This document shows positions 4,094 through 32,270 of a stretch of 64,000 bases of DNA, in pieces. Every line of letters starts with the position of its first letter. The first letter of the stretch is position 1. The notes beneath the pieces are model-generated. The model was not told the origin of the DNA, searched no databases, and saw only the letters and a list, made by a program, of their open reading frames with translations. Location of the stretch: contig NZ_JNKW01000008.1 of NCBI RefSeq assembly GCF_000702205.1, forward strand, positions 1-64,000, given 5' to 3'. The translations under genes and the position numbers were made by a program. Origin of the DNA: Lachnospira multipara LB2003. Its GTDB lineage: Bacteria > Bacillota > Clostridia > Lachnospirales > Lachnospiraceae.

Positions 4094-4109
4094 ACTTTCT
4101 CCTTAATAT

Positions 4110-14749: not shown

Positions 14750-16608
14750 ATCGAGTAGGAGGAATTTCTCATGAGCGAGAAATTCCGACCTCTCACACCA
14801 CCGTGCGTACCGTTCGGTACACGGCGGTTCAATCAATTTAACAAGTAACACACCTTTCGGTGTAGTAATCTAACATTGAGATTAGTCCGAATGCGGCTAA
14901 TCTCTCATTGCTTATTGCATATGAGACAGCCGTCCCTCTGCAAACTCTGGCGATTCTGCTTCCGGCATAAGCAGCAGCATATGCCCGCTTCCTAGTTACC
15001 CCAAGCTTCAATAGGTTCTTTGCTCTGTTCTGTGGAGTTTTCCAATGCTTCCAAATACACATACGAAGTCTATATCTGATATTACTATCAAGTTCTTTAC
15101 AGAGTGTTTTCATACTTCCTATCTTGAAGTAGTTAATCCATCCTCTGATGAGTTGATTAAGTTTCTCTACTTTATAGCTGTTGCTAACGCCCCAACTACG
15201 ACATGTAAGTTCTTTCATTCTCTTCTTGAACTTTGCTACTGATTTCGCATGTGGTTTTGCTTTAAACTGATGCGCTCTTGAGTCAAAGTAGAATCCAAAT
15301 CCAAGATATTTAAGTCCTTGTGGTTTGTCCACTTTGCTCTTGGTCATGTTGACCTTGAGACCTAGTTTCTCCTCAATGAATCGAGAGATATTCCTCATGA
15401 CTCTATTAGCAGACATTTCACTACCAACCATGATGATGCAATCATCTGCATATCTTACAAAGTTGAGTCCACGCTTTTCCATCTCCTTATCAAGTTCATT
15501 CAACATGATATTCGCCAATAATGGCGAGAGATTTCCTCCTTGTGGTGTTCCCACAATAGAGTCCTCGTACTCATCATCAATCATGATTCCGCTGACTAGG
15601 TATTTCCTAACGATAGAAATAACATCTCCATCTTTAATAGTTCTACCTATGATGGTCATAAGTTTATCGTGATTTACTGTGTCAAAGAACTTTTCCAAGT
15701 CAATATCTACAATCCAGTCATTACCATCATTCATCATGTCGAGCGCTGTTAGGATTGCTTGCTGTGCACATCTATTAGGTCTGAATCCATAACTGTGGTC
15801 ATGAAATTTGTTCCTCATAGATTGGTGTTAAGACCTGTGCTATGGCTTGTTGTATGAATCTGTCTGTTACTGTTGGTACTCCTAGGTTTCTGACACCGCC
15901 ATCAGGCTTTGGTATCTCCACTCTTCGTACTGGCTGAGGTCTATACTTTCTTGTCCTCAACTGTTCTCTGATAATGTCGCCGTTCTTTTCAAGATGTTCT
16001 TTGAGTTCTGTGTACTTCATTCCGTCCACTCCCTCTGCACCTTTGTTTCGTACGACTTGCAGATATGCTCTGTTGAGATTATCGCTAGATAGTATCTGCT
16101 CCATTAGACTACTTGTGTCCATGCGTTCTTTCCTTTCCGCCTCGCTTGATTTGACCACCCTTTCCCCGATTGGTTACGGCAGATGTTGTCATTTCTGCAA
16201 CACGAGACATACTCAAACTTATTGATTGTTCACCCCTTCGCTCCATTTCCATTACAGAAACTTCTTCACTACTATGGGTTCGGCTGACTTCTCACAGTTC
16301 GTTGTTACTAGGCTAATGAAACCTCTGTGAGACCTCCACGCTTAAGATGCACGCTCTTTCTCTCCATATATCCGCCACATCTACTCTGCTACTACAAAGT
16401 GATAGTTATTAGACTTCATTGCTTTTGGCCAACTTATCTCTCATAGCCTAGCCTTATATGTGATTTCTGTCCGTCGGACCAGAGATTTGCTTGCAGCTTC
16501 CTTCAGATTCCGTCTCGCGGCGGACACCCTTGCTGTTCGGCTATACACTTCCCACTATCTGGGCGTGTTCGGGACTTTCACCCGTTAGAGCGCGCCAGGC
16601 GTGTAAAC
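14750..16608 (-). mobile_element. group IIC intron with degenerate-frame maturase
   Basis: The element contains a 5' ribozyme region (about 16123-16608), a maturase reading frame and 3' domains. Domain V is the hairpin at 14797-14829 with a short AACG loop. Domain VI is 14761-14786 (GGAATTTCTC / GAGAAATTCC), followed by CCTACTCGAT, which holds the likely branch A and the terminal AT at about 14750. Upstream it abuts the T-run of the padC terminator, the usual target of class C introns. The 3' end is placed within a few bases; the 5' end (about 16608) is estimated from the T6 run and is less certain. Confidence 0.85.
14838..16122 (-). pseudogene. ltrA: group II intron reverse transcriptase/maturase (frameshifted)
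   Basis: Reverse transcriptase with thumb/maturase domain and no endonuclease, as in group IIC. The catalytic YADD is intact (RYADDCIIM), as are TPQGGNLSPLL and the thumb motif RGWINYFKIG. The sequence is, from memory, nearly the same as the E. rectale maturase known as MarathonRT. One extra base in the AAATTT run at 15804-15809 shifts the frame between IYEEQ and FHDHSYGFRPNR; removing one base restores a continuous protein of about 427 residues. The start at 16122 follows AAGGAAAGAACGC. The frameshift may be real decay or a base-calling error. Confidence 0.88.
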
Positions 16609-18015: not shown

Positions 18016-19329
18016 CTATTCAAATATAGCTTTTTCTTTTCTCTTAAACCACTCTTCTGCAGCATATAAAGGGATGTTAGTTATTGTTTCTTGCTTTTTA
18101 TAAGCAGACATAGTCATCTTTATCCCTTTAAGTTCCTCATTCTCCTTCATGATAGTAGTTAAGCTCTTAGATCTTCTATTCTCTTCAGCCTTAACCTCTA
18201 ATGGATAAACCTCATCAAGCTGAATAACAAAATCTAACTCTAGTGTTGATTTCTCATTGGTATAATACATAGGGCATTCACTAGTTGCACTTACATATTG
18301 CTGACAAACGTATTGCTCTGTAAATGCCCCCTTATATTCAACAAAAGCCTTATTATTAACAAGCACATCCTTAGCCAAAGTATCAGACATTGCCCCTAAC
18401 AAGCCTAAATCACTAACAAATAACTTGAAAGCTGCTGTATCCTCATAAAATTTAATTGGCTTACACACCTTATTTATTCGATTAACCTTGTAAACTAGAC
18501 CTGTATTTACCAGCCATTGAATAGCATTCTCAAATTCCTTAGCTCTAGCCCCTTTCTTTAAACTTCCGTATAAAAACTTTTTGTTCTCCTTAGCTAGCTG
18601 TGATGGAATTGAATTCCAAACCATGTTAATCTTAGCTATTTCACTTGTTGGCGCATGTTTTGAAAAATCATTCTGATAATCGCTTAAAATCTGCTTCTGT
18701 AATCTTCTAACCATCTTTAAATCTTGACTATCTACATAAGTTTGTACAACTTCTGGCATTCCACCTACATAATAATATTGACGTAACAATTCTTTATACT
18801 TTTCAGATAATGGACTTAACTCGTCAAATTCTGATGTCCTTAAGAAATCTAGTAGTTTTTCTTCTCCCGTAGCCATAACAAATTCTTCAAAAGACATGGG
18901 ATATAGTCTTAATTCATCCACCTTACCAACTGGGTATTCTGTTCCCTCATGCAAATGTATACCAAGAAGCGAACCTGCAACAATAATGTGATAATCTCTT
19001 GCTTCCTCATTAAAATACTTAAGCGAGGTAATTCCCCTATCTAACTCTTGAATTTCGTCAAGAAAAATAAGTGTCTCTCCAGGAGTGATTGATTCATTAG
19101 AAATCGCCTCTAGTGTTCTAATCACTCTATCCATATCAAAATCTTTAAAAAGCTCTTTAACATCATTATTGTTATCACAATTAATATATACTAAATTCTT
19201 ATATTCTCTCTTAGCAAATTCTTTAACAATATAAGTCTTACCAACCTGTCTTGCTCCATTTAAAATTAAAGGCTTTCTGTTTTTGTTATTTTTCCAGTTT
19301 ATCAGCTTCTGATAAATCGTTCTTTCCAT
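18016..19329 (-). CDS. AAA ATPase with DUF4143 C-terminal domain
   Basis: An ATPase of the AAA_14/DUF4143 family, 437 residues. Walker A GARQVGKT is near residue 30 and Walker B LIFLDEIQE near 90, with sensor VAGSLLGI following. The C-terminal part (about 200-410) contains the DUF4143 region with a PD-(D/E)xK-like strand, LELDFVIQ ... YPLEVKAEEN, resembling a nuclease fold. These proteins are abundant in gut anaerobes, and their role is unknown; mobile-element or defence roles have been suggested. AAAGGAGGCAATT sets the start. The upstream region holds 33-bp tandem repeats. Confidence 0.88.
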   Translation of the reverse strand: MERTIYQKLINWKNNKNRKPLILNGARQVGKTYIVKEFAKREYKNLVYINCDNNNDVKELFKDFDMDRVIRTLEAISNESITPGETLIFLDEIQELDRGITSLKYFNEEARDYHIIVAGSLLGIHLHEGTEYPVGKVDELRLYPMSFEEFVMATGEEKLLDFLRTSEFDELSPLSEKYKELLRQYYYVGGMPEVVQTYVDSQDLKMVRRLQKQILSDYQNDFSKHAPTSEIAKINMVWNSIPSQLAKENKKFLYGSLKKGARAKEFENAIQWLVNTGLVYKVNRINKVCKPIKFYEDTAAFKLFVSDLGLLGAMSDTLAKDVLVNNKAFVEYKGAFTEQYVCQQYVSATSECPMYYTNEKSTLELDFVIQLDEVYPLEVKAEENRRSKSLTTIMKENEELKGIKMTMSAYKKQETITNIPLYAAEEWFKRKEKAIFE

Positions 19330-19374
19330 AATTGCCTCCTTTATCAGTATTTATAGCTATTCTTTAATTTAATA

Positions 19375-19506
19375 TTACACTTTTTCCTAGGAACTTTCAA
19401 GTTGATTTCACATTTTTTCCTACGAACTTTTGCCTTAATCTTACACTTTTTCCTAGGAACTTTTGCCTTGATATTACACTTTTTCCTAGGAACTTTTGCC
19501 TTGATG
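19375..19506. repeat. four 33-bp tandem repeats with an embedded palindrome
   Basis: Units start at 19375, 19408, 19441 and 19474. The last two differ only at the final base; the first two are more diverged. Each unit contains TTCCTAGGAA, a 10-bp palindrome (TTCCTACGAA in unit 2). As 33 is divisible by 3, all frames stay open, which creates a spurious minus-strand reading frame. The array lies 46 bp upstream of the DUF4143 gene start, so it could affect its promoter. Confidence 0.85.
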
Positions 19507-20593: not shown

Positions 20594-23500
20594 TTACAAA
20601 TTCTCAACTTTTATAAAATGCCTCTCCTCATAATTATTACATTGAACATAAACACCATAACTTCCTAATTTAGCTTTTAAAGCTCCGCCACATTCTGGAC
20701 ATTTAATATTATATTCAAATATATAATTATCAACCAAATCTACTGTTAACCATTCATTGTTCCCACATTTCAGATTTGAACATTTTAAATATGGAGCTCT
20801 CTTACCTCTTGCCATGCCCATATATGCACCGCATTTCTTACATTTTATGTTATCCATTATATATGCTTTAAAGTCTCTACTAATATTTTTCTCGCCATAT
20901 TTTTGATATTTCTCAGATAATTTACTACCACTATCATTAGTTTCCAAATCAGTAAATTTAATTACAAGAGAAGCAAATCTTGAATTTCTTACTCTAAATA
21001 TAAAATTTTCTCTATTTTCAAATGAATACCCATTTTTTAAAGAAAACTTTGATTTTAATTTAGGAACACCATACCAAACAATTTCATCATCTATTACTAT
21101 TAGAGGAAAAATAGCATTTTCCGTTTCCCTTGTGATTTCTTTCCAGTCATCACTTAATTCATTAAAACATCTGGTTTTTACAATTATTTCCACACAATTA
21201 CTTCTAGTTTTATCTAATAATCTCTGAATTTTTTTGCTTTCGCCTAATTCATTAAAGGGTGCAGGTATACTAATTACAATTTTTTTCTTAGCATTTTCAA
21301 CATCATCAAAAAATTGATTTTCATAATCTCTAAAATTAATAATTACATTCTCATTTTTAAAAATATTAAATATCTTATAATCAACTATAATCCCCTCTTG
21401 TAAAATATGCTTTCTAAGTTTTTCAAATATATGGTTTGTTTGGTTTTTCCAAAATCTACTATCTCCAACAGCTATAAATTTTCCTCTAGCTCTTGTTATT
21501 GCAACATTAATAAGTCTAGTAACATTGCGGTTATCACCCTCATCAAGTAAAATACCTAATTTATTAGCAGGAAAATTTTCCACTATATCTAATATTATTA
21601 TGTCACGTTCTGAACCTTGAAATTGATGTATTGTTGCACATGTTACATTATCTTTTAGTTCCATAAGATTAATAAGAGATCTAATTAATCTTACCTGTGC
21701 AACATATGGCGCAATAATACCTATACTTACTTTTGGAGATTTAACACTCATAGCAATTCGAACCGAAACCATTGCTGAAACAATGTTGAAATGAGAATGG
21801 TTTTTATCCTTAGCAATAGGTGCATTTATTCCCTTTATGTCAACAAAAACCATGGAACTACCTTTAAAAGGTGCAATGTTAACTATATTTTCATTCTGAT
21901 TTTTATCAGGTGATTTTAATAATCCGCTATATATTTCTTTATTTGAAAACTTTGCAATTTTAGGATACATTCTTCTTTGCTCATTTAGCATAACAAGCCA
22001 TGGATGATAATTTATTCTATTAGCAGTATCAACAATCCCTAAATATCTAAATACATCTGTTCCTAGTTCTTTTTTTCTATCTGATTGAACTATGGGCGAT
22101 AACTGACGAAAATCTCCTACTAGCACTAAATGCTTATAAGTTTTCATTGCAGCATAAATTATCTGAGGCATATTAGCCATACTAACCTCATCAAACAAAA
22201 CATAATCATAAAAGCGATCATCAAATAAAGAATCCATAAAAACCTTCGTTATTGTAGTAGCTACAACACTTGCATTTAGTACATTTTGCTTTTCTTTATC
22301 TTTAATAATTGCCTTTATTTCTTTGAGCTTTTTTTCAGCTTCCTTATATTCAACTGAATTTACTTGTTTCTTTTTATTTAAACCATCCACTTCTTTAGTA
22401 TAAGATTCAAAAGTAGCCTTAAGTTCCGTCTCTGAGTCAAATGTATAAGTATACGATAGTGCCTCTCTTCTACTTAAAAGATCCTTATTTCTTGGATATC
22501 CATATCTTAAAATCTGTCCATTCTTGAAGGCATCATGTAAACCTAACTCATTTTTTCTCTCATATAATTTATTAATAACTCCATCAACAGAAATATTACT
22601 ATGAGATACTACTAAGATTTTTTTCTTAGAATGATATGCCTCAGCTATTATTGAAGCCATTGTATGCGTTTTTCCAGTTCCTGGAGGTCCCCATATTAAA
22701 GTAACTTGATTATTCAATGAAGATTTTACCGCTTCATCTAATCCAAATTTTAAATCCGATAATAATCTATTACTATCCACTAAAAGCAAACCTTCATGCA
22801 ATAAACTGGCACATATTGTATTATCCTTAAATTTATATTCACTAAGCTTATATGCTAGTTTTCTTGGAATCTCCCATGGTTTTACCAAGAGTTCTGCCAC
22901 ATTTATGTCATCACCAACATAACTTGTTAAAGAAAGCATTATTTGAGTATCCTCGCATGAAATAACATTACACGAAACTTTCTTTTGACCACTTAGTATT
23001 AATTCACCTTTTGTTGATTCAGGTAAATATATTTCATCCTGTGTCTCAAAATAATATGCGTAATAATCAGGTAACTTATGTACCATTTTCCCTGAAAACA
23101 ATTCATATTTTTTTCCACCATTCTTTGATAGAAAATAACTTTCTTCTTTTAGTGCACCTATATATCTATTTATAATAATATCGTCTGATTTTAAATTAAA
23201 AAATTTCTCTTCAGTATCCTCAACTCTTATATTATCTTTTAATTTCTTTAGTCGATTTTCGTCAACATCTTTAGTTTCCGACTTTTTCATTTTCCATATA
23301 CGACTTATGTCGTATTTATACATATAACTATATTCAGTCTTATATACTATATCTGTAAAACTCAAGTAAATATACGAATTCATAAAACTTATTTTGTCAC
23401 TAATATTATGTATAAGCTCAAGCTTTTTCCTATCTTTTGTATCATATGACTCATATTTAGAAACGAACTCGAATCGTTCATGATTTGCTGTTTCTAAAAA

Positions 23501-23611
23501 ACACTCATCTACACAAATAATAGTATTTAAACTCGTTAGAAATTCAAATGTTATAATTCTTGCTCTACTTGTTTCCGTAATTTTAGGTGCTAAAATCTTA
23601 ATCTTATCCAT
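20594..23611 (-). CDS. SF1 (UPF1-like, COG1112) helicase with degenerate PLD-like domain and zinc ribbons
   Basis: A 1005-residue protein. The N-terminal 300 residues are unrecognised. Helicase motifs follow: IWGPPGTGKTHT (I, about 305), FDEVSMANMPQI (II), VGDFRQLSPI (III), LNEQRRMYPKI (IV), IHQFQGSERDIIILD (V) and NVAITRARGKFIAVGD (VI). Residues of about 740-880 resemble a PLD-type domain (FFDDVENAKKKIVISIPAPF ... LIVIDDEIVWYG), but the HxK of the HKD motif is replaced by I and P, so it looks catalytically dead. The C-terminus has two four-Cys ribbons (CKKCG...CSNLKC; CPECG...C). Helicase plus PLD recalls Mokosh type II defence proteins. No partner gene is obvious. Confidence 0.85.
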   Translation of the reverse strand: MDKIKILAPKITETSRARIITFEFLTSLNTIICVDECFLETANHERFEFVSKYESYDTKDRKKLELIHNISDKISFMNSYIYLSFTDIVYKTEYSYMYKYDISRIWKMKKSETKDVDENRLKKLKDNIRVEDTEEKFFNLKSDDIIINRYIGALKEESYFLSKNGGKKYELFSGKMVHKLPDYYAYYFETQDEIYLPESTKGELILSGQKKVSCNVISCEDTQIMLSLTSYVGDDINVAELLVKPWEIPRKLAYKLSEYKFKDNTICASLLHEGLLLVDSNRLLSDLKFGLDEAVKSSLNNQVTLIWGPPGTGKTHTMASIIAEAYHSKKKILVVSHSNISVDGVINKLYERKNELGLHDAFKNGQILRYGYPRNKDLLSRREALSYTYTFDSETELKATFESYTKEVDGLNKKKQVNSVEYKEAEKKLKEIKAIIKDKEKQNVLNASVVATTITKVFMDSLFDDRFYDYVLFDEVSMANMPQIIYAAMKTYKHLVLVGDFRQLSPIVQSDRKKELGTDVFRYLGIVDTANRINYHPWLVMLNEQRRMYPKIAKFSNKEIYSGLLKSPDKNQNENIVNIAPFKGSSMVFVDIKGINAPIAKDKNHSHFNIVSAMVSVRIAMSVKSPKVSIGIIAPYVAQVRLIRSLINLMELKDNVTCATIHQFQGSERDIIILDIVENFPANKLGILLDEGDNRNVTRLINVAITRARGKFIAVGDSRFWKNQTNHIFEKLRKHILQEGIIVDYKIFNIFKNENVIINFRDYENQFFDDVENAKKKIVISIPAPFNELGESKKIQRLLDKTRSNCVEIIVKTRCFNELSDDWKEITRETENAIFPLIVIDDEIVWYGVPKLKSKFSLKNGYSFENRENFIFRVRNSRFASLVIKFTDLETNDSGSKLSEKYQKYGEKNISRDFKAYIMDNIKCKKCGAYMGMARGKRAPYLKCSNLKCGNNEWLTVDLVDNYIFEYNIKCPECGGALKAKLGSYGVYVQCNNYEERHFIKVENL

Positions 23612-23650
23612 AAGTAACTCCTATACTTAAGCTCATTCTCAACATGTGAT

Positions 23651-23695
23651 AGTTTTACTCGGTCACAACCGAGTCGGTTGTGACCGAGTAAAACT
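23651..23695. repeat. palindromic element, copy B (perfect)
   Basis: A perfect inverted repeat with 22-bp arms around one central base: AGTTTTACTCGG begins the left arm at 23651 and CCGAGTAAAACT ends the right arm at 23695. T4 and A4 flank the GC-rich part, so it could terminate in either direction, including the capsule operon entering from the right. It lies 40 bp upstream of the helicase start; copy A lies just beyond that gene's end. Confidence 0.85.
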
Positions 23696-23715: not shown

Positions 23716-24132
23716 CTAAAGCCCTATTATTAATCCCTTTTTACCATAAATATCTGTCTTTATCTTAGTCGTACTAATCTCTGGAGTTCTAGGCAAATAA
23801 ACCACATCCACTCCTTCATCCCTTAAGAAATCAAATTTTCCTTTCCAGTCATCTCCCATAACAAAAGTGTCGATGTGATACTCATGCATGTCATTTATCT
23901 TTTGTTCCCAATTTTCCTCAGGAATTACCAGATCAACATATCTAACTGCTTCAAGAAGCTGCTTTCTTTGCTCATATGAAAAATATGTCTTCTTTCCCTT
24001 ATCTATCTCATTAAAATAATCTGTTGATAAGGCCACAATTAAATAATCCCCCATCTCCTTAGCTCTTCTAAGTAAATTAATATGTCCGTAATGTAACAAG
24101 TCAAAAGTTCCGTAAGTTATAACTCTTTTCAT
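23716..24132 (-). CDS. tagD: glycerol-3-phosphate cytidylyltransferase
   Basis: Makes CDP-glycerol from CTP and glycerol 3-phosphate. It has the nucleotidyltransferase motif GTFDLLHYGH at the N-terminus, the MGDDWKGKFDFL segment and RTPEISTTKIK near the C-terminus, and the standard length of about 138 residues. The start at 24132 follows AAAGGACTGAAAGCT. It is the last gene of the polysaccharide operon, directly after licD, which suggests phosphoglycerol substituents on the polymer rather than a full teichoic acid pathway; no tagF-type polymerase is present in the window. Confidence 0.93.
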   Translation of the reverse strand: MKRVITYGTFDLLHYGHINLLRRAKEMGDYLIVALSTDYFNEIDKGKKTYFSYEQRKQLLEAVRYVDLVIPEENWEQKINDMHEYHIDTFVMGDDWKGKFDFLRDEGVDVVYLPRTPEISTTKIKTDIYGKKGLIIGL

Positions 24133-24187
24133 AGCTTTCAGTCCTTTCTTAAGCAACCACTACAAAGTAGTTCTCTCATTTTTACCA

Positions 24188-25033
24188 TTATAATAAAGTG
24201 ATTTCATCCCCAGCATAACCATGTTCAATATCAACAAATAACGGTTTATGTGTAACTCTCTTTTCCTTAGGAGGTAGTTGCATATAATCTCCAAATAAAT
24301 ATGTCAAAACTTTATCATAATCTTTAGGTCCGTAAAATTTATATCCTTCAAAATCATATAATGCTCTTTCTCTAAATAAAGAATGCTTACAGAAAGCTTT
24401 ATTAAAAGTTCCCATTATACAATAATCATCGCCTCGAAGATCTAGTTTTTTTCTTCTAGCATCTTCTTTACTTATAAAATCACTTCTAGAACTTAATAAA
24501 CATATAGATTTATTAATCACAAAATGAATAAAGTAACCTATAACAACACTTATAGGTTTTTTTATTCGTTTAACATAAGGCCAATCAAAACAAGAATTGA
24601 TAACATTAAATACAACTCTTCTATAGTATTCTATTTTTGAAGAAATTCGACCCATTTTTATTCTCTCTAAAGGGAAAATGTCTATAAAAATACCATGGTT
24701 AATATCTAAGCCAACATGTTCTTCCTGTAAAAAAACAGTATTAACGTCTCTGATTTTTATAAAAATATTCGGAGCATTTTTTTCAAATAAAACGTGCTGA
24801 GCTTTAAGATTTTCAGGAAGATACCTTACTCCCTCCTTTAAAAAGCGATCATAGTTTTCTCTAGTCATGCATATATCTATATCATCATCCCAGGGAATAA
24901 AACCTTTATGTCTAACTGCACCTAATAAAGTTCCATACATAATCATATATTCAATCCCCAATTTTTCACAAACCTTATGCACTTCAATCAAAATTTCTAA
25001 CTCTTTCTTTTGTAATTTTTTTAAATCATACAT
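24188..25033 (-). CDS. licD: LicD-family phosphotransferase
   Basis: LicD/fukutin-like nucleotidyltransferase fold that moves a phospho-substituent from a CDP-linked donor to a glycan. The motif MYGTLLGAVRHKGFIPWDDDIDICM (residues about 31-55) carries the metal-binding DDDID; a C-terminal YGPKDYDKVLTYLFGDYMQLP is typical. The classic donor is CDP-choline, but the neighbouring tagD makes CDP-glycerol, so phosphoglycerol is the likelier group here (inference). The ribosome site GAGGATAATTAG overlaps the end of the flippase gene. Confidence 0.9.
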   Translation of the reverse strand: MYDLKKLQKKELEILIEVHKVCEKLGIEYMIMYGTLLGAVRHKGFIPWDDDIDICMTRENYDRFLKEGVRYLPENLKAQHVLFEKNAPNIFIKIRDVNTVFLQEEHVGLDINHGIFIDIFPLERIKMGRISSKIEYYRRVVFNVINSCFDWPYVKRIKKPISVVIGYFIHFVINKSICLLSSRSDFISKEDARRKKLDLRGDDYCIMGTFNKAFCKHSLFRERALYDFEGYKFYGPKDYDKVLTYLFGDYMQLPPKEKRVTHKPLFVDIEHGYAGDEITLL

Positions 25034-25037
25034 CTAA

Positions 25038-26432
25038 TTATCCTCGTTTTAACATAGTTTTTATCTCTTCAAGATTAATAATTACAAACAAAATAATTAC
25101 AAAAACAGATATGATAAATATAAACTTATATTTTAGGAAGGACACCACAATTGCTTCCAATAAAACCAATACAGAATTTGTCGCTATTTTTCTCCAATCA
25201 AATGATAAGTTTAATAATTTATCAACATTTATCATTCTAATAAAAGCTAAAATCATATATGAAATAACTGTTCCTATTACAGCACCCCAAACACCAATAT
25301 AAATAATAGCTATACAGCTAATCAATAAATTTGTAATTGCTGCAATTAAAGTTGTAACCATATTATTAACAGATAATTTTAATGCTCCATACATGCTTCC
25401 ACAATAACCAGAAAGCGCATAAAAAACTGCGCCCGTTATAAGCAAAGGAGCAAACTGACTGCTCTTTTCATATGCTTTTGAACTTATATAAATATACATA
25501 AATGGTCTTATAAATATACATAAAAAAATAGCCACTAAAAAAACCAAAAACGAATACATTTTAAAAACCTGCATATAAAAATTCTTATCATTACTAGAAT
25601 CCATTTCTGTTATGGAGGATATTCCCCAAGCCTGTTGAAAAATAGTAATAAAAACTGATAGTAATGACGGAATTTTAGATGCGACAACATAAACCCCTAA
25701 TGCTGCTTTTCCAACCAAAATTTCTAATATAAATTTATCCGACGATTGTATTACCCACCAAGAAATATTATTTAAAATTAATGGTGCCGAATACTTTACC
25801 ATATCTTTAGCTAGGCTTAAATCAAAAACTGCATTTTTTAATTCTTTATATAAATTAGCAACAACAAAAATTAAAACAGCTATGATAACGCAAGAAATCA
25901 CATATGACAAAACATATCCTTCTATTCCAAGTTTCAAATGCGCCACAAATAAAATATTTAAGCTTGCCATTAAAAATGTTTGTAATATACACATAAATGC
26001 GTACATTTTTTTCTTATTAACAACCCTTAAATAATTCAACTCTATATCCAATAAAATACTTGCTGAAATATAAATAATTATGTGCCATTTCCATTCACTT
26101 ATAGTTTTATATAGCGAAAATAGGTTTAAACAAAATAGACATACAAATGATCCTATAACCCATACTATCATTCCCACTAAAAGTACATCCTGTGGTCTAT
26201 CTTTCCTATATAACCCAAACCTTAAAACAGCATCAAATATAACTATAGAAAAAAACGGAATAGCTAACTGAGAAATTGTAAAAATTAAATCAGATACTCC
26301 GTATTCTTCTGGTAACAAGTAATGTGTATATAATGGAACAAGTAAGAACATAATTGCTTTTGAACCGATACTGCCAATAGCAAATATAATAAGGTCACTA
26401 AATAACATTTTAAATTTATTATTCTTTGACAT
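25038..26432 (-). CDS. polysaccharide flippase (Wzx-like, MOP superfamily)
   Basis: 464 residues with about 12-14 hydrophobic helices and the N-terminal signature IGSIGSKAIMFLLVPLYTH ... LLPEEYGVSDLI common to oligosaccharide flippases. It would move the undecaprenyl-linked repeat unit outward for polymerisation. The ribosome site is GGGAGAAAA. It lies between the Wzy-like polymerase and licD in a tightly packed operon. Confidence 0.92.
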   Translation of the reverse strand: MSKNNKFKMLFSDLIIFAIGSIGSKAIMFLLVPLYTHYLLPEEYGVSDLIFTISQLAIPFFSIVIFDAVLRFGLYRKDRPQDVLLVGMIVWVIGSFVCLFCLNLFSLYKTISEWKWHIIIYISASILLDIELNYLRVVNKKKMYAFMCILQTFLMASLNILFVAHLKLGIEGYVLSYVISCVIIAVLIFVVANLYKELKNAVFDLSLAKDMVKYSAPLILNNISWWVIQSSDKFILEILVGKAALGVYVVASKIPSLLSVFITIFQQAWGISSITEMDSSNDKNFYMQVFKMYSFLVFLVAIFLCIFIRPFMYIYISSKAYEKSSQFAPLLITGAVFYALSGYCGSMYGALKLSVNNMVTTLIAAITNLLISCIAIIYIGVWGAVIGTVISYMILAFIRMINVDKLLNLSFDWRKIATNSVLVLLEAIVVSFLKYKFIFIISVFVIILFVIINLEEIKTMLKRG

Positions 26433-26456
26433 TTTCTCCCTACTCTCTCTTAGTTT

Positions 26457-27557
26457 CTAAACTAATTTCGCATTATGAGAAGTAACATGAACTAATTGAT
26501 AAGCAATCAAGCCTACAAAAAAGAAAATCCACACTAAATCCCATATATCTACTACATTTTCTTTATAATTCTTATCATTAAACCTAACAATTGGATAAAC
26601 ATTAAATGAAAGAAAAATACTATATCTTATCAAAAATTGTTCTGAATTAATTGCACCAATTACAAACATTAGGCTACATAAAAAAAACTTAGTTGAATTA
26701 TCTAATACAATCTTTTTATTATATATCTCAGATAAAACGTACACTACTATAATCAGGAAAAATATAAACAAGGCATATATCGGTCTACTATCTGCGTAAC
26801 CAGATAAACCTCCTAATGTATATACATTAATCATACGTCCATAATAATTTATTAAATAAATATTTGATTCACTCATATAACCAGATAATAAAGTTACAAT
26901 AACACTCCAAAAAGGCAGTATAATAATTGCTTTATTATAACGTTTATATAATTCATAAAATAATCTTAGAATAATAACGCCACTACTGCCAGGATGAACT
27001 AAAACTCCAAAAATGTAAATTGGAATTGATATTATTTTATTCTTACTTATATCTAAATAGATTCCCAAAGATATTATTGCAAAAGCAAGAGTTTGCCTTA
27101 CCCCAGAAACCGTTAAAGCAATATTATTCATTGCAAAATGAAGTAAAATTATTACAAAAATATCTCTGCTCTTAATTTCATCCCCTAAATAATCTGTAAC
27201 AATATATCCTAAAATAAAATACTCTATAAATATGGCAATAAATTGCAAAAAAGCATTATTAGGTAATAACGAAATCAAATAAAACAACAAAACACTTCCG
27301 TATTGATTTTTATAAATACTATACTTTAATAAATACTTAATGCCTTCTTTTCTAGTTATATCTAAAACAACATAATGTCTATACAAGTCCCATTCATATG
27401 GAGGAACAATATGGTAAGCAATAATACCATAAGCTAAACCCAATGCCACAAAGCTAAAAAAGACGTATTTTTTTTTGATTTTTATAGATTTTACCCACCC
27501 CACAATGTAAAACAATATAAATTCAGCAATATAAATAAATGATAATTCTAATAACAT
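26457..27557 (-). CDS. EpsG/Wzy-type polysaccharide polymerase
   Basis: About 366 residues with about 10 membrane helices. The stretch PPYEWDLYRHY, with conserved acidic and Arg residues near residue 55, and GVLVHPGSSGVI with a conserved His in a loop, fit the EpsG family of polymerases. It would join repeat units outside the membrane. GGGGGAAAAG sets the start at 27557. The assignment rests on topology, length and position next to the flippase. Confidence 0.82.
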   Translation of the reverse strand: MLLELSFIYIAEFILFYIVGWVKSIKIKKKYVFFSFVALGLAYGIIAYHIVPPYEWDLYRHYVVLDITRKEGIKYLLKYSIYKNQYGSVLLFYLISLLPNNAFLQFIAIFIEYFILGYIVTDYLGDEIKSRDIFVIILLHFAMNNIALTVSGVRQTLAFAIISLGIYLDISKNKIISIPIYIFGVLVHPGSSGVIILRLFYELYKRYNKAIIILPFWSVIVTLLSGYMSESNIYLINYYGRMINVYTLGGLSGYADSRPIYALFIFFLIIVVYVLSEIYNKKIVLDNSTKFFLCSLMFVIGAINSEQFLIRYSIFLSFNVYPIVRFNDKNYKENVVDIWDLVWIFFFVGLIAYQLVHVTSHNAKLV

Positions 27558-27594
27558 CTTTTCCCCCACTTATTAATGCTTATAAAGCTATCCT

Positions 27595-28677
27595 TTATTC
27601 TAAATATATTCTTTCAAGTTTCTTATATGCTTTATCAATATTATAACCAGCTTTATCAATCTCATTTTTCATGTCTCTTTTTTTCAATTTAATCAATGAA
27701 TCTAATAACTCTACCCAAACAGCAATAGGTTTCTTTAAGGAACAAAAATAACATAAATCTGTAATTTTCACTTCCTTAGTTACAGCCCCTGAAATCAAAC
27801 AAGGTATTCCTGCAGCTTGAGCTTCAATAACTGATAAAGGCAACCCTTCAAAAAAAGAAGGTAAAACAAATACATTGAAGCACTGTATAATTTCATTTAC
27901 ATCACTTCGACTTCCCATTAAAAATACATTTTTTTCAATTTTCTTTTCTTCTATCATTTCTTCTATTCTTTTTAAATCCTTGCCATCTCCAATTAAAACA
28001 AGTATTGAATTTTTATTTCGCTTATAATATTCTGAAAAAAGTTCAATCAAAAATTCTTGATTTTTGGGATAATTAAAATTTCCAACATGTCCTATTATTG
28101 TCTTATTATCCCATGAAAACTTTCTTCTTATTTTCTCTTCAATATCATTCTTATAAGCAAATTTTTTAAAATCTATTGCATTGACTACCAAACTATAATG
28201 TCTCTTACCATATAACCAATAAGCACTTTTCCTAGAACATGCCAAATACTTTGTAGTAACCATCGGTAATAAAAGTCTTAATATTTCCTTTTCTAAAAAT
28301 TTATATCTTGATTCAAACAAATGGTTAGTGCTATGACAATGACAAATTCTCTTCTTTACTCCAGCAACTCTTCCTACTAACAATGGAAAAAAACTCATTG
28401 CATCCATATTTACATGAATTACATCATAGTTACCATTTTTCATAATTTCATATGTCTTTTTAATATTCAAAACTAAATTTTGCTTTTTAGATGGCACTCT
28501 ATATATGTAACTTCCATTTGATTTAATTTCTTCATCATAGTAAGCTTCTTTATAACCATGACACAAAAAATCAATATGAATCTTTTCCTTATCAATTTTT
28601 CTATAATAATTCATAAGCATATTTTCTGTTCCTGCAAGTATCATTGATCCAGAAACTACAATAAGAACTTTTTTCAT
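27595..28677 (-). CDS. glycosyltransferase family 4 (GT-B)
   Basis: A cytosolic GT-B enzyme of 360 residues. The N-terminus VVSGSMILAGTENMLMNYYRKI is the usual GT4 start with the glycine-rich loop; the C-terminal donor site is VFVLPSFFEGLPLSVIEAQAAGIP with the EX7E motif (E-G-L-P ... E). It adds one sugar of the repeat unit; donor and acceptor cannot be told. A 15-bp gap to the upstream GT2 gene indicates co-transcription. Confidence 0.9.
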   Translation of the reverse strand: MKKVLIVVSGSMILAGTENMLMNYYRKIDKEKIHIDFLCHGYKEAYYDEEIKSNGSYIYRVPSKKQNLVLNIKKTYEIMKNGNYDVIHVNMDAMSFFPLLVGRVAGVKKRICHCHSTNHLFESRYKFLEKEILRLLLPMVTTKYLACSRKSAYWLYGKRHYSLVVNAIDFKKFAYKNDIEEKIRRKFSWDNKTIIGHVGNFNYPKNQEFLIELFSEYYKRNKNSILVLIGDGKDLKRIEEMIEEKKIEKNVFLMGSRSDVNEIIQCFNVFVLPSFFEGLPLSVIEAQAAGIPCLISGAVTKEVKITDLCYFCSLKKPIAVWVELLDSLIKLKKRDMKNEIDKAGYNIDKAYKKLERIYLE

Positions 28678-28692
28678 AATTAATCCACCTAT

Positions 28693-29682
28693 TTAAGCTA
28701 TATTTAAGTTTCTTTTAAGCTTATATAATCCTCTTATTAGATAACTTGTAATTAAGTAATTGCGACACAAAGCCCAAACAATCATTTTTCTCTCAACTGG
28801 TAATATATCTGAGAATAACAATTTTTTCTCATTTCTTTTTAAGCATCTTAATAAATAGTCTTTTTCCTTTTTATATTTATTCTCTTTATGACTAATAGCT
28901 AATCTTACCAGCAAACCCATATATGCTCTAGCACAATTTATTCGAGCATAAGATTGCCATGTATATGATTCATTACTACACGCATCATTAACATGATTCC
29001 ACACAGTAATTAAATCCATTTGTTTTTTTGAAAACATTTCACTCGAAATGCTTTCACCATTATTTCTATAATAGTAAATAGCACTACTATCAGTAACTAT
29101 CTTTTTTGCATTTTTTAAAGCATAGAAAAATCCTTCTACATCTTCATTAATTAATCCATTAGGAAATTTCATATTCCTAACAACATCTCTTTTATACACT
29201 TTATTAACCGCATAATGAATTGTCTTTCGACTATTTACTTTAAAAAATAATTTTGCATATTCATTACGATTATATATTTTTATATCCTTAAAGGCCTTAT
29301 TATCGTCATTTATTACATCGCTATTTTTTCTTACAATTTGACCACAAGAAATATCTGCTTTATATTTGACGATATTATTCATCAATATTTGAAACATATC
29401 CTTAGCAATCCAATCATCAGAATCTATAAAGCTTATAAATTCTCCTTTTGAAATTTTCAGACCTAAGTTTCTTGCTGCACTCAATCCCTCATTATTCTTA
29501 TGAATAACTTTAACTCTATTATCCTTTAATGCATATTCATCACATATATAAGAGCTATTATCTTTAGAGCCATCATCTATTAAAATCAATTCAAAATCCA
29601 TATAAGTTTGATTTAATATTGAATCAAGGCACTGTCTTATATACTTTTTTTCATTATAAACTGGAACAATTATGCTAAGCAT
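28693..29682 (-). CDS. glycosyltransferase family 2 (GT-A)
   Basis: A GT-A enzyme of 329 residues: LSIIVPVYNEKKYIRQCLDSIL at the N-terminus, IDDGSKDNS, the DxD-type motif SFIDSDDW near residue 90, and a later NEDVEGFFYAL acidic motif. It is typical of capsule and exopolysaccharide clusters and uses an unknown NDP-sugar. The C-terminus is basic and amphipathic, so it probably sits on the membrane. The ribosome site is TAGGTGATTAA. Confidence 0.92.
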   Translation of the reverse strand: MLSIIVPVYNEKKYIRQCLDSILNQTYMDFELILIDDGSKDNSSYICDEYALKDNRVKVIHKNNEGLSAARNLGLKISKGEFISFIDSDDWIAKDMFQILMNNIVKYKADISCGQIVRKNSDVINDDNKAFKDIKIYNRNEYAKLFFKVNSRKTIHYAVNKVYKRDVVRNMKFPNGLINEDVEGFFYALKNAKKIVTDSSAIYYYRNNGESISSEMFSKKQMDLITVWNHVNDACSNESYTWQSYARINCARAYMGLLVRLAISHKENKYKKEKDYLLRCLKRNEKKLLFSDILPVERKMIVWALCRNYLITSYLIRGLYKLKRNLNIA

Positions 29683-29694
29683 TTAATCACCTAC

Positions 29695-30882
29695 TCAATC
29701 AACTATTAAATCAATAATTCTCTTATAACTAGTTTTTCTATCAAATTGTTGTTCTGCTAATTTTCTTGCATTTATACCTCTTAATTCATCTCCTAATTCG
29801 TCAATAATAGCATTCTTTAAAGCTTCAACATTTTCTGCTTCAATATTGACTCCAATATCATATTTATTAACAATATTACAGAACACAGGATTTTCTAATG
29901 TATTAATTATCGGTTTACCTGATGCAAGATAATCACCTATTTTATTCACTATACTTTGTGGTGCACCTTTAACAAAACTATTAATTACTATGTCTGATTT
30001 ATTCAAAACAGCCGCCATTCTATCATAATCAACATATCCCCAGAAATGGATATTTTGCATATTTTTACTGTACGCTTTTAATTCATCTATCATGCCACCA
30101 GTTCCAAGTATCTGTGCATGTATATTTTTATCCGATAAGTCATTAACCGCATCAATTAATGTTTTTATGTCATAACTATTACTAATTGAACCTGTATATG
30201 TTATCCAATACTCATTATCATTTTTTTGAATATATTTTTCATTTTCTAAAACGCCTCTATCAAATGCATCTAAATCGCAGCCAACATAAACAGTTTCATT
30301 TGGAATATTTCTTTTTCTCTTTTTAAATGCTCTACTTGTATAATCCTCTGAAGTTCCTACAACTGCACTTGCATTGTTATATGCTTCATCTGCATCTTTT
30401 TCTATTTTTTTCAAAAATAATTTTCTTATTTTATTATTTTTTACATACCTATACATCGCCTCAGGCCATAAATCTTCTACATCGACAATAAAAGTTACGC
30501 CTTTTTTTCTACATTGATTTGAAACAAGTTTTGCTATTCTATTGGACGGAATTGTAAGATAAACAACATCTACATTATCTAATCTATTTTCTAAATACTT
30601 GCTTACTCTATAGCTTGATACTATATTGCTTAATATTCTTCTAATAGAAATATTATGATGATATTTTGGAGACTTTATAAATGTTATTTTAAACGGATGA
30701 TCTTGCTTTAAAATTACCTCTTTATTTCTTTTGCTTTTCGTAAAATGTTGAAAATCTGAGGTAACACATTCTAACTCAACACCAGCTTTTACAAGCATTT
30801 TTGCAAGATCAAATATTCTTGAAGGTCCTGGTTCCCCCGGAAACCATAAATAACCTAGTGATATTATCATAACCCTCTTCAT
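29695..30882 (-). CDS. glycosyltransferase family 4 (WbuB-like)
   Basis: GT-B enzyme of about 395 residues. It opens MKRVMIISLGYLWFPGEPGPSR, with the acceptor-side loop typical of WbuB-like transferases, then a Rossmann donor domain with WITYTGSISNSYDIKTLIDAV and SGKPIINTLENP. It probably adds the second sugar after the priming enzyme, given its place directly behind it. The start at 30882 follows GGGGGAATTTG; the longer frame upstream is unsupported. Confidence 0.88.
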   Translation of the reverse strand: MKRVMIISLGYLWFPGEPGPSRIFDLAKMLVKAGVELECVTSDFQHFTKSKRNKEVILKQDHPFKITFIKSPKYHHNISIRRILSNIVSSYRVSKYLENRLDNVDVVYLTIPSNRIAKLVSNQCRKKGVTFIVDVEDLWPEAMYRYVKNNKIRKLFLKKIEKDADEAYNNASAVVGTSEDYTSRAFKKRKRNIPNETVYVGCDLDAFDRGVLENEKYIQKNDNEYWITYTGSISNSYDIKTLIDAVNDLSDKNIHAQILGTGGMIDELKAYSKNMQNIHFWGYVDYDRMAAVLNKSDIVINSFVKGAPQSIVNKIGDYLASGKPIINTLENPVFCNIVNKYDIGVNIEAENVEALKNAIIDELGDELRGINARKLAEQQFDRKTSYKRIIDLIVD

Positions 30883-30902
30883 CAAATTCCCCCAATTATT
30901 TA

Positions 30903-32270
30903 TCATCCTATCTTTCTTTCAGCTTCTCTAATTAAGTCACTTTTTCTTTTTTCAAATCCTTCACTTGCTTCAGGAATAAAAACTGTTTTTACTGTAAGTA
31001 AAAGCAATTTAATATCCAATATAAAACTCATATCTTTAATATAAATTAAATCTAATTTAAGCTTATCCTCAGGATTTGTGTTATATTTTCCGTAAACCTG
31101 TGCATAACCTGTAATGCCGCTTTTAACTCTTTTTCTGTACTTGAATTCAGGTAATTTTTTTTCATAAACTGACACATGAGCAATTCTTTCAGGTCTTGGT
31201 CCAACCAAACTCATTTGTCCGATTAATACATTAAAAAGCTGAGGTAACTCATCAATCCTGTTTTTTCTAATTTTCTTTCCTACTCTAGTAATTCTATCAT
31301 CATCTTTAACTGCCGGCATAAAGCCATTTTCTTCAGCATTCACCCTCATACTTCTAAACTTAAGCACCTTAAAAACTCTTCCATTTATTGTCTCTCGCTC
31401 TTGTTTAAAGAAAACTGGGCCACCGTCATCTAGCTTAATTGCAATAGCAGTTACAAGCATAACTGGGCTTAAAATAACTAATAACATGAAAGACGCCAGA
31501 ATATCAAAGGCTCTCTTTACAACATAAAAAGCCTTTCTATCATCAAATGAGTCATAATGCATGATAGGTGTATCAATAAAGTGCTTAATTTCACAATTTC
31601 TTAGAAGTAAATCTTCAATATCCGGCACAAAATAAAAGGACTGATTAGTTTCCACACAAAACTTGATAAATTCATTTCTCTTATTTCTTGTAATACCTAC
31701 AAATATAACTCTCTTAACGTCCTTCATTCTATTTTTGATTATAGAATCATTTTCATTAACGATTTTACTAATATTAAACATGTGCGAATACTTTCGTAAA
31801 AGCTTACTTGTAAAATCCACAACCTCGTCTTCAGAAATATTTGCCCCGTAAATCACCAAAGTTTCAAGTGGTACGATTAGGGCTATTAACATTTTCTTAG
31901 TAATAAAAACTATTGCTAAGCTAGATGTTAACTGCAAAATGTAAATAATTAATCCTGGCACAAAACTAACATAATAATTAGCAATTATACAAGCCAAAAC
32001 ATAAGCTAATAAATCTGACAAAGATAGGCTTATAAACTGAGAAAGGGTGGTTTCCCATATTGTGTTTGACGCAAAATCATAAGCTCTATATAGTTTTGCC
32101 AAGTATCTATAGCAAATGTAAAACATAATAACAAAAGCTACCATTCCATAATTTCTAAACTTTTGGAAGGCAAACTTGTTGTAATATTCTATCCAAACAT
32201 ATGCAAAAAGCCCAACATTTATAACTGTAAGTATTGCTGTTGCAAGCTTTGTTATTAACTTATTTTCCAT
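30903..32270 (-). CDS. undecaprenyl-phosphate sugar phosphotransferase (priming enzyme)
   Basis: A polyprenol-phosphate hexose-1-phosphate transferase of the WcaJ/CpsE class, about 455 residues. It has four to five N-terminal membrane helices, a central CoA-binding-like domain (LVIYGANISEDEV), then the catalytic region: a membrane re-entrant helix (KRAFDILASFMLLVILSPVML), GPVFFKQERETINGRVFKVLKFRSM, IRKNRIDELPQLFNVLIGQMSLVGPRPE and GITGYAQVYG. It starts repeat-unit assembly on undecaprenyl phosphate and is the first gene of the operon. The start at 32270 follows GAGGTTAGGAC; the frame open to 32348 crosses the leader terminator and is not used. Confidence 0.92.
   Translation of the reverse strand: MENKLITKLATAILTVINVGLFAYVWIEYYNKFAFQKFRNYGMVAFVIMFYICYRYLAKLYRAYDFASNTIWETTLSQFISLSLSDLLAYVLACIIANYYVSFVPGLIIYILQLTSSLAIVFITKKMLIALIVPLETLVIYGANISEDEVVDFTSKLLRKYSHMFNISKIVNENDSIIKNRMKDVKRVIFVGITRNKRNEFIKFCVETNQSFYFVPDIEDLLLRNCEIKHFIDTPIMHYDSFDDRKAFYVVKRAFDILASFMLLVILSPVMLVTAIAIKLDDGGPVFFKQERETINGRVFKVLKFRSMRVNAEENGFMPAVKDDDRITRVGKKIRKNRIDELPQLFNVLIGQMSLVGPRPERIAHVSVYEKKLPEFKYRKRVKSGITGYAQVYGKYNTNPEDKLKLDLIYIKDMSFILDIKLLLLTVKTVFIPEASEGFEKRKSDLIREAERKIG

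Follow-up and report, generated by a model that had tools for sequence, protein, structure and literature searches.

Fusions of a helicase to a nuclease recur among phage-defence proteins, in which the presence of a PLD domain is commonly taken as a sign of cutting. In the 64,000-nucleotide stretch of the Lachnospira multipara LB2003 genome analysed here (the window), one gene joins a helicase to a PLD-like domain whose catalytic residues are replaced. Why would such a domain be kept? Our analysis suggests that the dead PLD domain has been retained for another job, possibly phage defence.

Gene organisation and helicase core

The helicase gene starts at an ATG at position 23611 of the minus strand, and its frame is open over 1005 codons. 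The gene, its upstream signals and its N-terminal and helicase parts are as follows:

20594 to 23611, minus strand: whole gene for a 1005-aa helicase that carries a pseudo-PLD domain and two zinc ribbons
23618 to 23622, minus strand: Shine-Dalgarno-like AGGAG, six bases 5' of the helicase ATG
23651 to 23695, minus strand: 45-base palindrome in the gap that separates the helicase gene from its upstream neighbour (22-base arms, 22/22 paired, one central base)
23189 to 23611, minus strand: lineage-specific N-terminal segment, residues 1-141 (model pLDDT below 50)
22742 to 23188, minus strand: helix, six-strand barrel and two helices, residues 142-290 (secondary structure of the model and Foldseek)
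21446 to 22741, minus strand: SF1 helicase core (AAA_11, AAA_12), residues 291-722 (Pfam, Foldseek)
22667 to 22690, minus strand: Walker A, GPPGTGKT, residues 308-315 (invariant in alignments of relatives)
22181 to 22192, minus strand: Walker B, DEVS, residues 474-477

We read the palindrome as terminator-like; its 27-base core is present in a single copy in the genome.

A preliminary description of the gene had proposed an SF1 helicase of the COG1112 type, and a helicase of this COG1112/UPF1 type is confirmed by the Pfam matches to AAA_12 (4e-32) and AAA_11 (3.7e-30) and by Foldseek. The predicted structure aligns to IGHMBP2 and UPF1 over about 670 columns (E 1.2e-31 for IGHMBP2), and these two are the nearest solved structures to the helicase part. 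According to our reading of the model, residues 142-290 form the UPF1-type 1B barrel and stalk. By sequence and model, the protein has the helicase motifs, barrel and stalk of a UPF1-like SF1B enzyme, and its ATPase/helicase core is UPF1-like with Walker A and Walker B intact. The roughly 300 N-terminal residues in which an unseen domain had been suggested therefore consist of this barrel and stalk and of residues 1-141, for which the predicted structure gives no confident fold.

A predicted PLD fold without its catalytic residues

The C-terminal part contains the following features:

20948 to 21349, minus strand: pseudo-PLD domain, residues 755-888 (profile comparison, predicted structure, alignment)
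21089 to 21112, minus strand: degenerate HKD, IFPLIVID, residues 834-841 (H replaced by I834, K by P836, D841 kept)
20765 to 20842, minus strand: zinc ribbon 1, ligands C924, C927, C944 and C949 (Pfam, sequence)
20618 to 20701, minus strand: zinc ribbon 2, ligands C971, C974, C991 and probably H998 (Pfam and sequence; H998 from reading the alignment)

No PLD domain is among the 25 families listed of the 34 matched by the window protein in Pfam. A PLD fold in residues 755-888 is supported by comparison with a profile of intact PLD relatives (hhalign probability 95.8%, E 7.6e-9) and by the predicted structure, in which Foldseek/VIA aligns 125 residues to NucT (E 4.5e-5, Z 12.5, rmsd 3.3). The domain also matches TrmBL2 (Z 12.0), Nuc (Z 11.8) and FAM83B (Z 11.5). 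Profile and model together bear out the inactivated PLD-like domain of the preliminary description, and the structure prediction proposed there gave a recognisable fold for both 142-290 and 755-888.

Compared with the motif HxK(x)4D(x)6GSxN, the window protein retains D and G alone. The change of the HKD histidine to isoleucine and lysine to proline had been described correctly; in addition, the serine is a valine and the asparagine a proline. An intact HKD elsewhere in the protein, named earlier as a reason to abandon this reading, was sought with the pattern HxK(x4)[DN], and zero occurrences were found anywhere in the protein.

The loss is shared. Among the 21 aligned branch members, the window protein being one of them, neither H nor K occurs (0/21 each); the serine is found in one (L002) and the asparagine in one (L003), while D841 is kept in 21/21; in the relatives with an intact motif H, K, D, G, S and N are all present (9/9). 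Judging from this alignment, the catalytic H and K are lost branch-wide, in all members aligned. Proline occupies the K column in 17/21 and the N column in 19/21 members. Other, non-catalytic residues are also kept, namely D770 (20/21), W846 (18/21), G848 (18/21) and R873 (19/21), and together with the recurrent prolines they indicate that the domain is under constraint and not simply decaying. In the tree, the 21 nuclease-dead rows form one side of a branch with a support of 72/97, which is not decisive, and the nine-row clade containing the window protein has a support of 100/99.

For the pair L007/L104, the dN/dS is 0.18 in the pseudo-PLD tail and 0.05 in the helicase, so by this estimate the tail is under purifying selection in this pair, the sole one with a usable dN/dS: the other pairs are either near-identical or have a saturated dS in one or more parts. 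The L006/L009 tail gives 0.08 at a saturated dS of 3.8.

The Pfam family Zn_ribbon_Top1 matches the C-terminus in two stretches (5e-6, 26.7 bits, under the cut-off of 32), and H998 is the probable eighth zinc ligand. The two topoisomerase-like ribbons had been described as added; they are present, but by our reading the intact-HKD relatives L018, L020, L027 and L029 also have two ribbon-like Cys clusters C-terminal to the PLD domain, so the ribbons are not an addition in the window protein. Such clusters are retained, again by reading, in 10/20 other branch members (L003, L005, L013, L030, L098, L099, L100, L102, L107, L108).

Distribution and gene neighbourhoods

The gene is rare and patchy, even inside one genus. 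At E 1e-30, it was found in 0/97 other relatives and in 0/21 other genomes of the same genus, and it occurs in 2/199 other genomes of the family and 8/397 of the phylum. The wide conservation expected of a housekeeping gene, which had been named as evidence against a defence role, is thus not observed. A single-sequence scan of genome contigs gave no relative, and a scan with a four-row alignment gave 70 loci, the majority matching the helicase alone. Among viral sequences, 12 loci were found: ten match the helicase at 20-24%, and the other two are short matches at 39%. Phage records gave six matches, each below 40% coverage. These scans thus gave no sign of a phage-borne gene. A match was found in 231 plasmid records, and three of the 20 listed (L002-L004) match over more than half of the query.

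Beside the window gene lie genes of polysaccharide type and a single AAA-DUF4143 gene, which belongs to the candidate defence class PDC-S01 and is a weak defence candidate; no clear defence gene was found among the neighbours scanned. DUF4143 has three matches in the Lachnospira multipara LB2003 genome.

Six of the nine members of the window's clade have defence genes in their vicinity. L108 has a type I R-M system (MTase_I 5.1e-182, two specificity subunits, REase_I 8.9e-97) and SoFic, L107 has DUF262, and L098 has BREX genes upstream (a PglX piece, PglZ, BrxA) and is flanked on both sides by a gene for a type IV REase. L102 is close to HmaB and HmaC, L016 to PDC-S37 (8.5e-303)/Hhe (7.7e-150), and L019 to mREase_IV (5.4e-206). 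No defence gene could be placed at L030 (one neighbour scanned) or L097 (batch scan). Control loci also have defence-model matches (mad3 twice, AbiEi, AbiEii, AriA), and since these are known per set and not per locus (four of the nine clade loci in the batch against an uncounted share of 10), the contrast between clade and controls is not clear. Two matches among the neighbours were rejected: the DpdF model cross-matches a topoisomerase-III-like gene of L099 (G573:C23:40345) and was also matched in 10/14 control genomes; RT was read as the window's own group II intron ORF and discounted.

The proposal of a candidate defence protein is therefore partly supported, by the neighbours of close relatives and not by those of the window gene itself.

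Explanations for the inactive domain

The best explanation, which we hold to be evenly poised, is that the protein belongs to a branch of bacterial helicase-PLD proteins whose nuclease is dead, and that in the window's clade these proteins serve mainly in defence. We read the window protein as probably a defence-linked RNA/ssDNA translocase. The helicase would move along RNA or single-stranded DNA like UPF1-like enzymes. Instead of cutting, the pseudo-PLD domain and ribbons would grip nucleic acid, form a dimer surface or provide a docking site. In its defence role the protein may either displace or remodel invader nucleic acid itself or pass it on to a nuclease whose gene lies elsewhere, in many cases close by. 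A conserved branch with the fold kept, catalysis lost and a two-proline signature makes defence without a nuclease of its own testable.

A less probable alternative, though one with some weight, is an accessory helicase of ordinary RNA/DNA metabolism (R-loops, stalled ribosomes or forks) without a defence role, in which the PLD remnant and the ribbons merely bind nucleic acid. This agrees with UPF1 and IGHMBP2 as nearest solved relatives, with the polysaccharide-type neighbours of the window gene, and with branch members outside defence loci: no defence gene was recognised beside the Bacillaceae-type members whose neighbours were read (L006-L008, part of L009, L104 and L002, with L010 and L011 left out), and L100/L101 adjoin, by reading, dnaB- and purA-like genes. 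However, the absence from the 21 other genomes of the genus and the defence genes near most of the clade members speak against it.

More tentative still is a specific form of the defence explanation, in which the PLD fold with its two new active-site prolines would have become a docking or sensing module, and the helicase a mobile sensor handing invader nucleic acid to, or licensing, neighbouring nucleases (type I R-M, type IV REase, BREX, Hma-type).

We consider it improbable that the PLD domain is still enzymatic with a rearranged active site. D841 is invariant, and in the part of PMC12839542 available a K-to-R change in the HKD domains of BrxL is considered to preserve activity. However, proline for lysine is non-conservative, H and K are absent from all members and S and N from all but one each, and D770, D841 and R873 are the sole charged residues conserved at 75% or above in the branch domain.

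To about the same small degree, a nuclease or sensor in residues 1-141 might substitute for the PLD domain. This segment is genuine, with the Shine-Dalgarno-like AGGAG in front of it, and shares 27.6% identity over 4-121 with the start of the L108 protein (E 4.9e-7). However, the N-terminus of L107, of similar length, has no significant match to it (E 2.2), and the best matches among PDB sequences, a putative DNA binding protein at E 0.085 and a second match at 0.57, are unusable. According to the alignments, the segment is missing from L030, L005, the Bacillaceae-type members and L003 (on a cyanobacterial plasmid), and therefore cannot account for the missing HKD across the branch.

A decaying gene with a relic PLD part is very unlikely. 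The tails are of low identity, and the tail evolves faster than the helicase (L007/L104), which would fit decay, but the 1005-codon frame, the conserved non-catalytic residues, the two recurrent prolines and the Cys clusters kept in half of the other members argue against it.

Comparison with known systems

In PADLOC, the matches to the Mokosh proteins MkoA and MkoC are both partial. The best match of the helicase part is MkoA of type I (PDLC03920, 5.6e-59), confined to the helicase (residues 293-732 against 622-1093 of 1112 in the model). MkoC of type II (PDLC03924, 1.6e-36) shares the plan of a COG1112-type SF1 helicase followed by PLD in one chain; its best stretch is residues 540-816 against 771-1047 of 1136, not full length, and four intact-HKD relatives reach 1105-1119 of this model, also short of full length. 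MkoC requires its PLD domain, and Mokosh type II is, as we understand it, defined by a C-terminal PLD nuclease with an intact HKD. With H and K changed to I and P, and S and N to V and P, the window protein falls outside this definition, so that the type II plan proposed earlier stands for the order of domains and not for the nuclease. It also differs from MkoC in its two C-terminal zinc ribbons; we know of no such ribbons in MkoC. A separate, MkoB-like PLD gene was not among the 25 families listed of 46 matched by the neighbours (three scanned singly, 12 in batch). A PLD-like domain is given for both Mokosh types in the accessible part of PMC10952713. Mokosh-like calls made from the helicase profile alone will take in proteins unable to cut as presumed.

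UPF1, IGHMBP2 and UPF1-like helicases have the same core with 1B barrel and stalk, and to our knowledge none of the UPF1/IGHMBP2 type carries a PLD domain. We found no description of a helicase with such an inactive PLD domain in the literature within reach, which included few subscription papers. In the model, the domain has a fold similar to the FAM83 (DUF1669) pseudo-PLD and the TrmB/TrmBL2 PLD-like domains. FAM83 is a eukaryotic scaffold and TrmB/TrmBL2 an archaeal regulator/chromatin protein, and unlike the window domain neither is linked to a helicase. The available part of PMC6008594 describes FAM83 proteins as pseudo-PLDs that anchor CK1.

CnuH of CoCoNuT is accompanied by McrBC homologues and CnuE according to the portion of PMC11090510 at hand, unlike the window gene, beside which neither McrB/McrC homologues nor CnuE were recognised (ORF starts read, selected neighbours family-scanned). 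In the same portion (PMC11090510), the CnuH proteins are described as UPF1-like helicases that work with effector nucleases as partners in predicted defence systems of bacteria, and an inactivated nuclease domain has a precedent in these systems.

Domain organisation and genomic setting

The protein under study is a UPF1-like helicase followed by a PLD-like domain and two zinc ribbons, encoded by the following gene.

20594-23611, minus strand, window gene, encodes 1005 residues

The gene starts with ATG, with AGGAG six bases before it, and its single match in its own genome is itself. Its G+C content is 28.4%, compared with 33.1% for the window. A 45-base palindrome (22 of 22 arm positions matched) lies upstream, with a 27-base core found at a single site in the genome. 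It looks like the terminus of the polysaccharide-type block that precedes the window gene, which would then probably be a separate transcription unit. This block (23716-30906, same strand) contains a cytidylyltransferase gene and LicD-like, flippase-like and glycosyltransferase-like genes, the latter three named by reading. Elsewhere in the window, a tandem array of a 33-base unit (19372-19505, 4.1 copies, 85% matches) separates the AAA-DUF4143 gene from a DUF6548 gene, and a group II intron type reverse transcriptase at 14838-16158 looks broken, being split over the overlapping ORFs 14838-15818 and 15799-16158 on the minus strand.

The SF1 helicase core covers residues 291-722 (Pfam AAA_11 and AAA_12), both Walker A and Walker B are intact, and the nearest solved chains are UPF1 and IGHMBP2. 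According to the whole-protein model (mean pLDDT 76.6, pTM 0.71), residues 142-290 form a helix, a six-strand barrel and two helices, a prediction consistent with the 1B barrel and stalk found in UPF1-like helicases; a section of PMC11090510 reports an OB-fold on a helical stalk for this family. Residues 1-141 have a pLDDT below 50. This segment is no annotation artefact, because the protein of the same family at locus L108 matches window residues 4-121 (E 4.9e-7). The N-terminus of the L107 relative is similar in length, and its match to the window protein is without significance.

A PLD fold without catalytic residues

Among the 25 listed of the 34 Pfam families matched by the window protein there is no PLD domain, whereas four relatives with an intact HKD motif (L018, L020, L025, L065) match PLDc_2. 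When the PLD parts of nine branch members, without their ribbons, were compared as a profile with that of seven intact relatives, the probability was 95.8% (E 7.6e-9) and the motifs lined up. The model of residues 738-1005 (mean pLDDT 76.3, pTM 0.53) resembles NucT (E 4.5e-5, Z 12.5, rmsd 3.3, 125 aligned residues), Nuc (Z 11.8) and Zucchini (Z 11.7). It is also similar to TrmBL2 (Z 12.0) and FAM83B (Z 11.5), for neither of which do we know of any PLD enzyme activity. Taken together, the helicase, the barrel, the inactive PLD fold and the ribbons can be regarded as established by sequence and prediction.

Residues in the HKD motif columns of intact relatives (L018, L020, L025, L027, L029, L034, L042, L057, L065; n=9) and of the branch (window, L002, L003, L005, L006-L011, L013, L016, L019, L030, L098-L100, L102, L104, L107, L108; n=21)
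H: intact 9/9; branch 0/21 (S, P, V, W, T, I, N or F)
K: intact 9/9; branch 0/21 (P 17, S 2, G 1, gap 1)
D: intact 9/9; branch 21/21
G: intact 9/9
S: intact 9/9; branch 1/21 (L002)
N: intact 9/9; branch 1/21 (L003; P 19, I 1)
Other residues retained in the branch: D770 20/21, W846 18/21, G848 18/21, R873 19/21

The preliminary description had noted that the catalytic His and Lys are replaced in the window protein; this is confirmed and strengthened, as both are gone in all 21 branch rows. The predicted loss of catalysis is thus a property of a branch. To our knowledge, no PLD enzyme is active when H and K are missing. The only usable pair for dN/dS, L007/L104, gave a value of 0.18 in the tail against 0.05 in the helicase, all other pairs being saturated or nearly identical.

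The table omits five helicases that lack a PLD domain, L101 (a near-copy), L103 and L012 (both fragments), the broken genes L004 and L041, and L015, which the tree shows as a separate loss. In the Nostoc plasmid relative L004 (5920-8607) an in-frame stop interrupts the gene, and L041 is split over two frames; intact relatives exist. L015 (8512-11412, a Frankiaceae MAG) has AER in place of HxK, keeps its Cys clusters and groups with the intact rows, and has lost the HKD independently, making this a second loss.

Trees were built from the helicase core only, with long branches flagged by the program. In the first tree (37 rows) the window protein pairs with L030 (support 100/99), followed by L005, L016 and L019 (98/97), within a 14-row set without HKD (91/91). 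In the second tree (36 rows, new loci added) it groups with L030, L107 and L108 (100/99), inside a nine-row clade that also contains L016, L019, L005, L098 and L102 (100/99). Another group of ten rows consists of the Bacillaceae-type members with L002, L099 and L100 (97/97). A branch separates the 21 rows from the others, though its support (72/97) is not decisive. Since the trees are unrooted, loss rather than gain of the HKD rests on its general conservation in PLD enzymes.

Zinc ribbons

The two ribbons had been described as added in the window protein, which is not so: the intact relatives L018, L020, L027 and L029 have, by reading, two ribbon-like Cys clusters after the PLD domain. Of the 20 other branch members, 10 also have such clusters by reading (L003, L005, L013, L030, L098, L099, L100, L102, L107, L108), with Pfam support for some, and the clusters are absent from L002, L006-L011, L016, L019 and L104. 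Given their presence in intact relatives and in part of the branch, the ribbons are old and have been lost in places. In the ribbon-less Lachnospiraceae relatives L016 (8568-11564) and L019 (10070-12982), a related UvrD/HelD-like protein of ~1000 residues comes next, a possible partner helicase.

Occurrence and neighbouring defence genes

The window gene is an accessory gene. Excluding the window genome from all counts, it was absent from 97 relatives at E 1e-30 (21 of the same genus) and found in 1 of 290 genomes of the class at E 1e-40; with the profile at E 1e-90, there were matches in 2 of 199 genomes of the family and 8 of 397 of the phylum, including a partial match in G437 and a fragment in G499. 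Misses are possible in the class, phylum and family searches, which scored just the two to four top candidates in each genome. The 1095-residue frame at L096 (G437:C1:2183383-2184792) matches the helicase part of the profile (4.7e-94).

Defence genes lie near six of the nine members of the nine-row clade, the scanned neighbours of L016 and L019 having been picked by eye. The L098 locus contains:

L098 1009-4779 (G751:C37), BREX-type genes, PglX matched only as a C-terminal piece, PglZ in two ORFs
L098 5029-12302, helicase relative between type IV REase genes

The two type IV REase genes match the same model, PDLC03657 (G751:C37:12035-12937 and 18490-19296; the upstream one 1.5e-91). The PglX piece, the split PglZ and BrxA lie upstream, and the state of the first two makes the BREX-type system look degraded, or affected by assembly errors. 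The L108 helicase adjoins a type I R-M operon (MTase_I 5.1e-182; specificity subunits 8.8e-61 and 2.9e-34; REase_I 8.9e-97, partial at the edge of the stretch) and a SoFic-like gene (1.6e-39). L107 neighbours a protein read as DUF262-type (Orf5 8.2e-49, HEC-06 2.6e-46), L016 an Hhe-like/PDC-S37 protein (7.7e-150, 8.5e-303) and L019 a type IV REase (5.4e-206). The neighbours of L102 are HmaB (1.2e-72) and HmaC (2.1e-68), named DUF1156 and DUF499 by Pfam; part of PMC12839542 places DUF499 ATPases with an N6-methylase in BREX-related systems. No placeable defence gene was found at L030 (one neighbour protein scanned) or L097 (scanned within the batch only). Near the window gene lies a PDC-S01 match (6.3e-175), an AAA-DUF4143 candidate, and DUF4143 has three matches in this genome. 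On cyanobacterial plasmids, the dead-PLD helicase of L003 (Aulosira, 1155-5588) adjoins an MkoA-like helicase (2.9e-116), and L004 has a HEC-05 gene nearby (8.9e-101).

We scanned 85 neighbour ORFs from nine loci (window, L097-L100, L102, L104, L107, L108) with PADLOC at E 1e-30, and likewise 114 control ORFs from ten stretches chosen by position (nine spanning 18 kb each and one 4.9 kb) in the same genomes, except one from a same-genus genome. The controls matched 12 families, equal to five proteins (two mad3, AbiEi, AbiEii, AriA) if same-name models hit one protein. The neighbours matched 46 families; the 25 listed, with SoFic from a single scan, amount to at least 13 proteins (six at L098, two at L102, one at L107, four at L108), counting same-name models once and excluding PDC-S01 (two), an RT hit and a DpdF match discounted as a cross-match. 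Defence genes are therefore in excess by protein, with no clear excess by locus: among the matches listed they are confined to four of nine loci, and control hits may fall in one to five of ten. Because of this, the defence role of the window protein is one that we infer.

Comparison with known systems

The helicase would move on RNA or ssDNA, the ribbons and pseudo-PLD domain would bind, and the protein may serve defence, with a partner or stand-alone. A dead PLD fold acting as a platform has a precedent in FAM83, which anchors CK1 (part of PMC6008594), and inactivated nuclease domains within helicase-bearing predicted defence systems are described for CoCoNuTs in a section of PMC11090510. 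The conserved nuclease-dead branch is a real, testable oddity.

Among named systems, Mokosh type II comes closest. In an excerpt of PMC10952713 both Mokosh types are listed with a PLD-like domain, and a passage of PMC11291487 states that Mokosh degrades viral transcripts. The preliminary description had proposed the Mokosh type II plan, and the plan is indeed common to both; however, the window protein has neither an intact PLD nuclease nor a profile match over the full length, and is therefore not filed under Mokosh type II. The interpretation given in that description thus finds partial support. The window protein represents a new form of helicase-PLD protein.
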